DNA of 64,000 nt from assembly GCF_000614025.1 (NCBI RefSeq), contig NZ_BAKF01000004.1, forward strand, positions 1-64,000, written 5' to 3'. Under the pieces are notes generated by a model. It was given only the letters and a program-made list of their open reading frames with translations. It was not told where the DNA came from and made no database searches. The position numbers and the translations under genes are program-made. This document shows positions 10,431-64,000 of the stretch, one piece after another. Origin of the DNA: Prevotella aurantiaca JCM 15754 (GTDB taxonomy: Bacteria; Bacteroidota; Bacteroidia; Bacteroidales; Bacteroidaceae). The first letter of the stretch is position 1. Each line of letters starts with the position of its first letter.

Positions 10431-10580
10431 CTTTCCCACGCTGAGAAACATCTCAAGGGGGCAAGGTGAGGTCTGCACCTTATGAATATTTGCCGAAGAT
10501 GACCACGTCTCCAGCCCTCGCACTGTGCGAGAGTTCGCCCTACATACAGTCAGGGCGTTGTTTGTTGCTTTGTTTAGCTT
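10431..10580. other. GC-richer intergenic segment with three small hairpins between era and der
   Basis: The gap between the era stop and the der start (10420-10708) contains a block that is visibly richer in G and C than its surroundings. It holds three stems: AAGGTG/CACCTT (10463-10481), CTCGCA/TGCGAG (10517-10531) and CGCCCT/AGGGCG (10536-10557). No reading frame is convincing. It could be a structured leader of der or a relic of a mobile sequence. The rest of the gap (10581-10708) shows nothing. Confidence 0.4.
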
Positions 10581-13464: not shown

Positions 13465-13612
13465 TTAAAAGCAAAAATTATATATTTGGCTATTCACAAG
13501 AAGTTTTATAGCGGCAACTTCACATATTTTATTTTATAGGTGGAAAGAAGGCAATAAAGGTGTAAATATTTTTCAAAGAAATATCTTTTACTTAAATCCC
13601 TTGTTATCAGTG

Positions 13613-13690
13613 TGTTGCAAAACCTATTGTTTTGCACGGTAAAAGCGGCTGTTTTGCATTGCAAAACCTACGCTTTTGCAATGTCAAAGC
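13613..13690. repeat. 22-bp palindromic repeat array, copy 1
   Basis: TTTTGC half-sites begin at 13630, 13652 and 13674, exactly 22 bases apart. Each is followed after three bases by an inverted GCAAAA, GTAAAA or similar half-site. A further GCAAAA (13617-13622) precedes them. The array lies in the divergent gap between the DUF177 gene and the secreted-protein gene at 14068. Other than the promoter-like boxes, I see nothing else in 13465-14067. Confidence 0.85.
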
Positions 13691-13884
13691 GCAGTTGTCA
13701 TTTTTTAACAGAATTATCTTTACAAAGCGGAAGCGGAAATTCGGTGTTTCCTTTCGATAGTAAAGAGGAAATGAACCTACTGTCGATAAGGATTATTGGC
13801 TTGATATAGGGTTGATTGTACGTCAAATTTCTACATATTGGAAAGTATTTCAACAAAAGGTGTAAGTTTCTTGGATTTTATTTG

Positions 13885-25470: not shown

Positions 25471-25536
25471 AAAATTTGTTATTATAATTTTGAAATTTGT
25501 TATTATAAATTTTGAATTTTATTATTATAAATTTTT
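25471..25536. repeat. AT-rich 22-bp tandem repeat, three units
   Basis: Three consecutive 22-base units (25471, 25493, 25515), each close to AAATTTGTTATTATAAATTT, lie 46 bases past the rmuC stop. The third unit is the most diverged. Confidence 0.75.
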
Positions 25537-30788: not shown

Positions 30789-30990
30789 AAAGTTTATAAA
30801 TGTTTTTCGGAATCTTATATACGAAAAGTTAATTTAAAATGTAATGGTTCGAGTTATTACATTTCTTATACTCATGAAAAAGTATTGTGTGGAGATGAAG
30901 TTTAACGGATGAAAGCTTTATGATAAGTCCTTATTTTTGTAAAGATAATACAAACGGAAAATAATATAATCGGTTTTACGATGCGAAAGT

Positions 30991-31060
30991 GCCTCTTTTG
31001 CAATACAAAACAATCTCTTTTATCGTGCAAAATAGGCTCTTTTGTATAGCAAAACAATGG
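30991..31060. repeat. 22-bp palindromic repeat array, copy 2
   Basis: Half-sites TTTTGC (30996), TTTTAT (31018) and TTTTGT (31040) are exactly 22 bases apart, each paired with a following inverted CAAAA half-site. The array sits in the gap 30789-31234 between the rsgA stop and the GSCFA promoter. Nothing else was recognised in that gap. Confidence 0.8.
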
Positions 31061-31234
31061 GTGTTGTAAAGCATTGTTAGCAAGTTTATTATAGGATATA
31101 TTAATTGCTGAAAAACATTTACATCTTTATAAAGCTTTTCGTTTAGAATATTAAAGGGGTATTTGAAAGGTGAGTTGTATCTAAAAAGGAGTTCCTTATC
31201 AGAATAGATGAGGCCTTATGATTGGCATACTTAT

Positions 31235-40169: not shown

Positions 40170-40595
40170 TTATTCTTCCTCATCTTCTGGATCAGCCCAA
40201 ACTATTTGTACACCTGATGCAAAGTCTTGTGTACTTTTTCGTGTCCTAGGGTCGCGTCGGCTTGCTGGAAGGAACTTGCACTTTACGCCCTTTACATTCT
40301 TTTTAATATCAAAATCTTCTTTATTTACTACAGGATCGCTTTCTACTGTAAGGTGAAATCGGCCTAATCCGTCAAGGATAACTGTGTTTCCAAGACTAAG
40401 ATTATAACTAATTTCATCTACCAGCGCCATGATGATGCCTGTAACTTCACCTCGTGTAAACGATGTACTTGATTGAATAGCTGCTGCAAGGTCGGCTGTT
40501 GAAGTTTCCCCACTGCTCACTACTCTTGCATGCCACTTACCACCACGATTGGCTTCTTTAAACTTACTTTGTTGTAGTCTGATACTTATTGCCAT
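40170..40595 (-). CDS. HU-family DNA-binding protein (HU-HIG type), copy 1
   Basis: The 141-residue protein has the HU/IHF fold extended at both ends, as in the Bacteroidetes HU-HIG family: an initial beta-strand region with RGGKWHARVV, the helices LAAAIQSSTSF and VTGIIMALVDEI, the arm region LGRFHLTVES and a C-terminal acidic tail. It probably shapes the nucleoid. A second, diverged HU-HIG gene lies at 49526. Its promoter box shares 18 bases with that of the gene at 48938. Confidence 0.85.
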   Translation of the reverse strand: MAISIRLQQSKFKEANRGGKWHARVVSSGETSTADLAAAIQSSTSFTRGEVTGIIMALVDEISYNLSLGNTVILDGLGRFHLTVESDPVVNKEDFDIKKNVKGVKCKFLPASRRDPRTRKSTQDFASGVQIVWADPEDEEE

Positions 40596-40640: not shown

Positions 40641-40908
40641 CATAAAATTCTCAAATTATACCCTATCGAATGAAGAAAACCACTTCTTATTAAGGCTAAA
40701 TATGCTTATTTGTCTTATAAATGTTCAAAGATGAAGCACAATTTTATACACGAAGAAATAACTATAATTGTTTGAAAAATTGTTGTTTAACATACAGAAG
40801 TCTACTTCGAAGACTCTATTTTATCAATGAATAGAAGATAATAAAGTTGTAAAGAATTTACAAGATATATTCTTTGTTGTAACTATCAGATTTTCAATAT
40901 GTTGTAAT

Positions 40909-41000
40909 AGTGCCTGTTTTGCGATGTAAAACAAGCACTATTACATTGCAAAATAGCCGATATTGCAATGTAAAACAAGTACTTTTGGAATATCAAACAA
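40909..41000. repeat. 22-bp palindromic repeat array, copy 3 (diverged)
   Basis: Half-sites TTTTGC (40917), TATTAC (40939), TATTGC (40961) and TTTTGG (40983) keep the exact 22-base period although the sequences have drifted. Inverted GTAAAA or GCAAAA half-sites follow each. The 21 bases 40902-40922 (containing TAATAGTGCC) are identical to 55891-55911 in copy 4. Confidence 0.75.
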
Positions 41001-41468
41001 CTATCAATGCTTTTCGATCACGTTTTTCTTTACAAAACGAGGAGCTTTTATGCAGTTGTATAAAGGCTGTAAGAAGAATTTCTTACAGCCATAATAGTTA
41101 AGCTATACTTAAAATTTAATGATGAGAAAGTATGGATATGAGTAGCTACTACTTATTAAACATGGTAGACAGACTTGCGCTCTTAGTAAAGCAATAGCGG
41201 ACGTTAATCAGAAGAAAGAAGACAGAAAGCTGTAGTATTTAGAAAGAAAGGATGAAATGTTTCGTTTGTTATTTAAACAAGTCATCATAGGTGTGCAGCT
41301 GTTTTGCTATGATATTATGCTTGAATTAACGCAAAGCATTATATCAAAGAGATATAAACCCTGTTTCCTTTGTGTTCTAATACATTGCAAATATCCAACT
41401 ATGGAAACAAAAAACAACATTTTGTAATAAATGTTTGGTATTTGTTTTCGTTTGTAAAAAATATTAAT

Positions 41469-55562: not shown

Positions 55563-55883
55563 CTTAAATCTTTTTACCGATACAACGGTAATAAAACAAA
55601 AGCAAACTAACGCTTTTATAAATAATTTTTAAAAATAAAACGATTAAATTATTCTTTTTGTTAAAGTTATGCCCTTTAAATATCTATTTGTCTATTGGGA
55701 TATTAGTAGTTGTTATGCAATTGCGTTTTTATATGTATCAATAGAAAAGGTAAACATCAACGAATAGTAATATTATCATTACTTGGGAAGCATATAAAGA
55801 GGTGATATTTTTTGCCAGTTGATTTTACCTTCGAATGGCTTTCGTTTTGTAAATATTTTATCAGTAAAAAGCGAAAGAAATTG

Positions 55884-55972
55884 TTTTGCGTTGTAATAGT
55901 GCCTGTTTTGCAATGCAAAAGAGGCCCTTTTGCCGTGCAAAACAGGCTCTTTTGCGAGGTAAAAGAGCCTAT
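55884..55972. repeat. 22-bp palindromic repeat array, copy 4
   Basis: TTTTGC begins at 55906, 55928 and 55950, exactly 22 bases apart. Each is followed after three bases by GCAAAA, GCAAAA and GTAAAA. A further TTTTGC at 55884 matches the previous register exactly (22 bases). It lies in the divergent gap between the TolC gene and tRNA-Leu. Apart from the tRNA promoter, nothing else was seen in 55563-56284. Confidence 0.88.
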
Positions 55973-56241
55973 ATTGTAAAGCTTTGATAATAAGAAAGTT
56001 GTGTGATAGATATTCTTATGAAAAATAATTACAATATAAACGCATTGCTTTTATTCTTAAATGGCGAGTTTAGACATATTGTGTTAGATAGTGTTTTTGT
56101 TGCTTTCATGTGGCGGTAGTACAACTTTCAAGTTTTAATAATTTAATAGGATAAATTATAAAAACATGATGCTGTAAAGTCATAATAATGGGGGTGAAAA
56201 TAAAAAAGATGAGTAGTTTAGAAGAAAAAGAGTATAAATAA

Positions 56242-56284: not shown

Positions 56285-56366
56285 GCGCTTGTGGCGGAAT
56301 TGGTAGACGCGCCAGACTTAGGATCTGGTGATTTCCATCGTGCAGGTTCGATTCCTGTCAAGCGCA
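56285..56366 (+). tRNA. tRNA-Leu (anticodon UAG)
   Basis: The 82-base sequence folds into a class II tRNA. The acceptor stem is GCGCTTG/CAAGCGC with discriminator A. The anticodon stem CCAGA/TCTGG has a CTTAGGA loop with anticodon TAG (56319-56321), and there is a long variable arm. The T arm contains GGTTCGATTCC. CCA is not encoded. Confidence 0.96.
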
Positions 56367-63703: not shown

Positions 63704-63850
63704 TTTGTTTTAAGTGTTGGTATTTTTAAGGAGGCATACTCCTGTATCTGAAAATACAAATAGATACAGCAAATAGTTTAAATAGTTGTAAAGAATTTTG
63801 AAGAGTATTTGTTATGTATAATTATCTTAATATCAATACTTTATAATACC

Positions 63851-63945
63851 CATTGTTTTGCATTCCAAAACAGGCACTTTTGCACGATAAAACAGGTACT
63901 TTTGCTTTGCAAAACAACCGCTTTTGCAACATGAAACCGATATTA
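63851..63945. repeat. 22-bp palindromic repeat array, copy 5
   Basis: TTTTGC begins at 63856, 63878, 63900 and 63922, exactly 22 bases apart, four units with CCAAAA, ATAAAA, GCAAAA and ACATGAAA-type partners. It lies downstream of the operon terminator in the terminal 350 bases, where nothing else was recognised. Confidence 0.88.
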
Positions 63946-64000
63946 TAGTTTTTGAATGATATTATTTTTACATAATATGAACAATTTTATAGCTTTGGAT

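Follow-up and report, generated by a model that had tools for sequence, protein, structure and literature searches.

Phased intergenic elements of about 189 bp with species-specific linker words in Prevotellaceae: candidate chromosomal docking sites

Why should the intergenic gaps of a Prevotella genome carry arrays of short palindromes at an exact 22-base period, and what might read them? The question is raised by the window analysed here, i.e., the whole stretch of 64,000 nucleotides at positions 1 to 64,000 of contig NZ_BAKF01000004.1 of Prevotella aurantiaca JCM 15754, in which a first-pass annotation had reported five arrays of the type TTTTGC-N3-GCAAAA. All five are present, all are intergenic, and no ORF of at least 90 aa overlaps any of them; in the copy nearest the right edge, TTTTGC indeed starts at 63856, 63878, 63900 and 63922. 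The arrays also exceed chance, since TTTTGCNNNGYAAAA (at most one mismatch) matches 28 times in the window, against 2.72 expected, and none of 100 shuffles gives as many. The array, however, is only the middle of an element of about 189 bp, the two flanks of which differ. Within the array, TTTT and AAAA tracts alternate at an 11-bp phase and enclose two kinds of linkers, named here A7 (TTTT-N7-AAAA) and B7 (AAAA-N7-TTTT). The five elements of the window are as follows, with lengths taken from left end motif to right end motif and element 5 being the one that had been annotated:

Element 1, 13561-13727, minus strand: 167 bp, one 22-bp unit short; array 13619-13677; dyad 13593-13619 (16/22 fixed bases); IHF-like site (8/9) 13605-13617
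Element 2, 30935-31123, plus strand: 189 bp; array 30974-31054; weak dyad 31065-31093 (14/22); IHF-like site (8/9) 31067-31079
Element 3, 40848-41037, minus strand: 190 bp; array 40917-40986; dyad 40878-40906 (19/22); IHF-like site (8/9) 40892-40904
Element 4, 55845-56033, plus strand: 189 bp; array 55884-55964; dyad 55975-56003 (16/22); IHF-like site (9/9) 55977-55989
Element 5, 63787-63975, minus strand: 189 bp; array 63856-63925, in which TTTT alternates with AAAA at 11-bp steps, with CAGGCAC, CAGGTAC and CAACCGC as B7 linkers and, as A7 linkers, GCATTCC, GCACGAT and GCTTTGC; IHF-like site (9/9) 63831-63843; the automatic dyad match (14/22) lies outside the element and was not used

Below, G000 designates the genome of P. 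aurantiaca itself, G017 that of P. falsenii, the nearest comparison genome, and G010 that of P. bivia. The P. falsenii orthologue of element 1 has one 22-bp unit more, while the syntenic place of element 2 is without an array in that species. Two side observations concern the window. An AT-rich 22-bp tandem repeat at 25472-25535, which may be a decayed or an unrelated array, occupies a gap that holds a full element in P. falsenii, and the Rfam matches are an engA RNA (10457-10556, minus strand) and a tRNA (56285-56366, plus strand) that lies some 250 bp away from element 4.

The excess over chance is genome-wide: a two-unit, 28-nt pattern (at most three mismatches) has 566 forward and 593 reverse matches, against 17 and 19 for the reversed control. 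Using a detector of 4-base TTTT/AAAA tracts alternating every 11 bp, with one mismatch permitted per tract, we found 71 arrays in 852.3 kb of the own genome (about 0.8 per 10 kb, from which some 250 elements per genome are extrapolated), none in one equal-sized Markov-1 simulation, and 109 in 1048.7 kb of P. falsenii. Nor are these arrays open-ended, for seven or eight tracts are counted in 54 of the 71 own arrays (79 of 109 in P. falsenii), i.e., a near-constant size. When 44 own-genome elements were aligned in one direction, the flanks proved common to the copies and the left unlike the right, so that the element is directional. Finally, the bases beside the tracts differ in other species, which deprives TTTTGC of the status of a general half-site.

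In the own genome, in P. falsenii and in part of the other taxa, a dyad lies at one end of the element, its best form being TGTAAC-N3-TTGATNATCAA-N3-GTTACA. It contains an IHF-type consensus, the letters of which we take to be WATCAANNNNTTR. Complete (9/9) matches to this site within 60 bp of the array edge accompany 30 of 70 arrays in the own genome, against 1 of 138 control windows farther out, and 35 of 107 in P. falsenii, against 1 of 211; the whole window has eight such matches in all. Among 33 other taxa, duplicates dropped, the site adjoins 39 of 154 arrays (3 of 294 controls), with 36/117 vs. 1/224 in 17 taxa and 3/37 vs. 2/70 in the other 16, a split that is not blind, as the set of 17 was picked after examples had been seen. 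On the same sets, a dyad score of at least 15/22 fixed bases was reached by 85 of 117 loci (8 of 113 controls) and by 9 of 37 (3 of 35 controls), the latter hardly above control; the first of these counts supersedes an earlier one from the same 17 taxa that included overlapping loci (90/125 vs. 8/119 control windows). When the dyad was instead spelled out as a strict regular expression, no match adjoined an array. The dyad thus belongs to part of the range only. An intergenic repeat with an IHF site is also known from E. coli, namely RIP/BIME-1.

The annotation had further regarded the bases between half-sites as free. There are in fact two kinds of linkers, one of which, B7, is strongly species-specific and constitutes the informative part of the array. 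With strands collapsed, A7 words are varied in both species (75 distinct among 216 in the own genome, 68 among 309 in P. falsenii). As for B7, the own genome has 43 distinct words among 204, six of which (CAGGCAC, CAGGCTC, GTGCCTA, CAGGCGC, GAGCCTA and CAGCCGC) make up 148, and P. falsenii has 33 among 315, with CCTACGC, CAATAGG, CCGTAGG and CAGCCGC accounting for 273. Moreover, the own words are never single: as exact AAAA-B7-TTTT strings, the own-genome vocabulary occurs 94 times inside arrays, not once outside them and not once in P. falsenii, and three-base tracts raise the count to 95 inside, still with none outside. The corresponding figures for the words of P. falsenii in its own genome are 130 inside and 1 outside, or 211 and 7 with three-base tracts. 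In P. falsenii and Hoylesella saccharolytica, linkers are position-specific within the array, a property that fits copying from a master element as well as it fits repeated binding of one protein. On own contig C148 (about 41-56 kb; L052, 1239-16218), five elements stand some 3.6-4.0 kb apart with near-identical words and flanks, and these are probably copies made through duplication of a neighbouring gene.

To compare linkers in register, elements were oriented by motif scores and units -3 to -1 were tabulated for the 47 of 69 own and 70 of 106 P. falsenii elements that were in register; the remaining 22 and 36 had a right motif that was low-scoring or out of phase, and arrays near stretch ends (two in G000, three in G017) had been left out earlier. 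B7 identity is 0.73 within the own genome, 0.76 within P. falsenii and 0.41 between them, where random 7-mers, taken as the best of two strands, give 0.34. The A7 values are 0.69, 0.80 and 0.72, so that in the own genome B7 is barely more uniform than A7, and those of the end linker 0.62, 0.97 and 0.69.

The same pattern emerges at orthologous loci. Over seven pairs shared by the two genomes, identity reaches 0.91 in the tracts (175/192), 0.68 in A7 (105/154) and 0.44 in B7 (58/133, end linker counted separately), compared to 0.69 in the outer flank (1694/2448); Fisher tests against the flank give p = 4.9e-9 for B7 and p = 2.5e-12 for the tracts. The end linker (38/49 = 0.78) falls outside the B7 pattern, and the remaining parts of the element, at 0.64-0.65, are no better kept than the outer flank, which also holds for the dyad side (right motif, 203/315 = 0.64). 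B7 identity is uneven across the seven pairs (12/21, 10/14, 15/21, 4/21, 3/21, 6/21 and 8/14), and at locus 13619 both species have words of the P. falsenii type. At these loci, then, it is B7 that has been replaced, whereas place, tracts and A7 have persisted. The conservation of the tracts relative to the flank, together with the excess over controls and the 11-bp phasing, bears out the early suggestion that spacing is under constraint and, as far as sequence can tell, favours a protein-binding array over a CRISPR-like or single-stem REP reading. CRISPR in particular was rejected: the 11-bp grid and a linker vocabulary common to the arrays are not identical repeats with unique spacers.

Positions are shared more often than chance would give. 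Seven of the 13 testable own arrays have a counterpart in P. falsenii (58 others were not testable), whereas 71 of 595 intergenic gaps hold an array (binomial p 0.0003); in the reverse direction, 7 of 17 testable arrays have one (92 others not testable). The partner lacks an array at the syntenic place in the remaining 6/13 and 10/17 cases. When P. pallens and P. histicola are compared with G000 and G017, a syntenic array is found in 12 of 23 testable comparisons, against 11 of 113 control places (p = 1.4e-5), while the arrays of P. bivia have none at syntenic places (0/7, vs. 9/111 controls). These last counts are array-by-genome, so that one array may count twice, and exclude loci selected for their arrays; the P. 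bivia set includes one overlapping locus pair. At one locus of the own genome (L013, C116), the array has P. pallens words, and the locus matches one of P. pallens (L322) at 97.5% identity over 1.6 kb, other matches between the two genomes being at 76-88%; this is likely a recent transfer of an array in a foreign dialect.

Within the genus, 10 of the 71 genomes carry arrays by a threshold that requires no fewer than 19 forward matches and a count four or more times that of the reversed control (G004, G006, G010, G012, G017, G027, G028, G039, G053 and G065). In G058, matches to the reversed pattern outnumber those to the forward one, and word starts and ends differ. This range is patchy, since G003 and G026, both closer to the own genome at one locus (79% identity each) than the carrier G010 (76%), have few or no arrays. 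Among named genomes, a seven-tract pattern has at least 119 stretches, and the matches listed are all titled Prevotella, Prevotellaceae, Hoylesella, Xylanibacter, Segatella or Leyella. The same grid occurs with other words in P. histicola, P. pallens, P. bivia, Hoylesella and other Prevotellaceae, and most of the sampled taxa have B7 words of their own, many taxa being represented by one to three arrays only: e.g., GATGCCC/GACGCCC in P. histicola and ACCATAC/ACCCCCT in P. pallens, while TAGCCTA is common to G028 and two metagenome-assembled genomes. Three isolated observations complete the survey. One array of G028 (L109) continues, with unchanged phase, into 22-bp units of another type (GAAA/AATG); four stretches of a viral collection match; and G081, from another family of the same order, has 782 general four-tract matches, above any same-genus genome searched, an excess that may stem from base composition.

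The first-pass annotation had called the function unknown, which stands at bench level, but the repeat itself is very probably in print as PINSR, judging by description (length, intergenic location, copy number and host) rather than by a comparison of letters, and is in that sense already known. PINSR was reported in 2015, without a function, as a 188-bp intergenic repeat of P. intermedia/nigrescens that lacks coding capacity; two strains have 177 and 184 copies, with about three quarters of the positions common to both (PMC4755523). According to the part of that paper devoted to the repeat, it is PCR-positive in P. falsenii and PCR-absent from the other-clade species tested and from some species of its own clade, other Prevotella clades apparently being without it (PMC4755523). 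Like our element, it is thus about 188 bp long, intergenic, without an ORF and present in more than 100 copies; unlike what we describe, the section on the repeat describes neither a 22-bp anatomy nor a linker vocabulary or a dyad, and the present grid also occurs in other clades. PCR primers based on a consensus could miss copies with changed words. In the literature searched, PMC4755523 is the only paper joining PINSR to Prevotella, and no title or abstract among the matches listed mentions a 22-bp grid or dialects, subscription literature lying mostly outside the search. What is new here is the anatomy of the repeat, i.e., its 11-bp tract grid and its species-specific B7 vocabulary.

Other repeats share single traits with the element. 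BrickBuilt, a MITE of Porphyromonas gingivalis, is likewise an intergenic repeat of Bacteroidales with a leader, short tandem repeats and a tail; it differs by its 23-nt units, the number of which varies from 1 to 22.8, its IS5-like inverted ends and its 19 copies, and dialects are not reported in the sections consulted (PMC4596501), whereas our element has a 22-bp grid with seven or eight tracts in 54/71 arrays. REPINs, with 69-235 per genome in 300 E. coli, are also numerous, short, palindromic and long-lived (PMC8049555), but the present element has a fixed 22-bp grid, and five array-rich genomes are devoid of the RAYT family. Correia elements have an IHF site too, bound by IHF in gel shifts for the 155-bp form, but they possess 24-bp inverted ends and target duplications, with no mention of phased arrays or dialects in the portion examined (PMC2229807). 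Finally, the DNA uptake sequences of Neisseriaceae form genome-wide species dialects (PMC3630211), but each of these consists of a short word used singly, with copies numbering in the thousands, while the present words sit in arrays.

Where the elements lie bears on what they may do. Sixty-six of 69 own elements are outside ORF calls (92 of 106 in P. falsenii), and the genes around these 66 are convergent in 20 cases, divergent in 11 and tandem in 35; of the start codons that face an element, nine in ten are more than 200 bp distant. A promoter or leader role, suspected from the flank TTTTGTAAAG, was rejected, as orientation and gene direction disagree and 20/66 elements lie between convergent genes; for the latter reason, promoter control is not a common theme. 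Neighbours less than 2.5 kb apart are rare (1 vs. 11.7 simulated in G000; 11 vs. 18.9 in G017), and the CV reveals no significant regularity of spacing (p 0.47 and 0.07, respectively). From the rarity of close neighbours and the indifference to gene direction, we infer a role in chromosome organisation.

No binding protein for the arrays was found among the candidates considered, i.e., HU-HIG and the gene families adjoining arrays. HU-HIG (PF18291) was dismissed as a correlated factor, being present in all 72 genomes searched, array-poor ones included. Of the genes in the stretches analysed, seven were checked, and their distance to the closest array ranges from 321 bp to 10.6 kb. The own genome has 14 matches. 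One HU-HIG gene of the window (40170-40595, PF18291 match at 40257-40595) adjoins element 3, and P. bivia, too, has a match some 170 bp away from an array (C3:606255). Nor is there a common gene beside the arrays: the widest neighbour family occurs in only 4 of 12 genomes.

We consider that the elements of about 189 bp may be chromosomal docking sites co-evolving with a putative sequence-specific DNA-binding protein, a reading to which we give a probability of roughly 45% and which, as a mechanism, is the least strained. About four 22-bp units of A/T tracts phased at 11 bp would form a stretch of bent DNA, to which the IHF-type dyad at one end would add a bend in this species group. The putative protein would bind side by side and read B7 once per 22 bp, always from the same face of the DNA; its specificity would have diverged from species to species, with the sites following suit. 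Its task would be chromosome organisation rather than promoter control.

The main rival of the docking reading is copying combined with gene conversion, which we regard as a serious though doubtful alternative. In such a REPIN-like population of non-autonomous copies, a putative mobilising enzyme other than RAYT would read B7, ectopic gene conversion would refresh old copies, and the vocabulary of each species would be that of its present master copy. The species-specific sequence families, their patchy range in the genus, the syntenic absences and the position-specific linkers all agree with this, but orthologous copies retain position, tracts and A7 while B7 changes, and the constancy of A7 then needs explaining. 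A scan of all offsets in the elements with both ends (32 in G000, 64 in G017) revealed no convincing target-site duplication: with thousands of offsets compared, the best excess in G000 was 3.2 of 32 elements, and the best count in G017 was 17 vs. 10.2 expected of 64, in flanks that are low-complexity or repeated. Agreement between the element ends, TGTAAA...TTTACA, extends over no more than some 6 bp, and PINSR is likewise reported to lack terminal inverted repeats (PMC4755523). RAYT (PF01797) was rejected as the driver, having no match in G000, G012, G017, G027 and G039, all array-rich; one or two matches exist in G004, G006, G010, G028, G053 and G065. In favour of mobility, part of the P. 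falsenii elements sit within a larger MITE, some 530 bp long (e.g., c84:8529 and c79:28347), the ends of which resemble those of MITE239/ISPg3 of P. gingivalis. Since a similar end motif (two mismatches permitted) lies within 500 bp of 37/105 elements in G017 and of 8/69 in the own genome, the MITE is a passenger route rather than the rule.

That the palindromes instead act as hairpins in a structured RNA (terminator, leader or sRNA) is a reading we find improbable. Element 4 does fold far better than its shuffles (z -6.97), but element 5 only a little better (z -1.34, with 21 of 200 shuffles as good). Linker complementarity exceeds shuffling in G017, both between units -3 and -2 (p 0.004; 27 perfect complements vs. 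18.2) and between -3 and -1 (p 0.0025; 34 vs. 22.1), a test that is inflated because many G017 copies are near-identical. The own genome has an excess of perfect complements for -2/-1 (6 vs. 2.7, p 0.035) and -1/0 (2 vs. 0.2, p 0.0135), but its main pairs are without covariation (-3/-2, p 0.33; -3/-1, p 0.52). Moreover, Rfam has no match at arrays, and a hairpin needs no vocabulary common to a whole genome. A passively drifting repeat is very improbable: none of the tests shows a function directly and the inner flanks of the element are no better kept than outside DNA at orthologous loci, but the tracts have been conserved, and B7 evolves more quickly than the flanking DNA. Least credible of all are DNA uptake signals, for which the whole-genome dialects, comparable to those of Neisseriaceae (PMC3630211), and the 11-bp phasing of the tracts would speak; such signals sit poorly with words that are never single and with one directional element of about 189 bp that is nearly always outside ORF calls.

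Rapid co-evolution between a DNA sequence and the protein that binds it is a feature of eukaryotic centromeres and of PRDM9 sites. With still more reserve than for docking as such, we suggest that Prevotellaceae might possess a chromosome-organising system of hundreds of near-constant four-unit operators that stay put while their words are rewritten genome-wide as species part, tracking a fast-evolving putative DNA-binding protein. If true, this would be a bacterial counterpart of the co-evolution seen in those eukaryotic systems. If copying and gene conversion were the cause, a repeat population spread without a known enzyme would also be worth having. If the change is driven by a protein, some 250 elements per genome (extrapolated), each with several words, would have been rewritten between close relatives at unchanged positions, which would make a genome-wide change of DNA-binding specificity testable in culturable bacteria, with natural dialects as probes. 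PINSR, left unexplained in 2015, would thereby gain a candidate role and extend beyond the group in which it was described, in array-bearing hosts that are bacteria of the mouth and gut.
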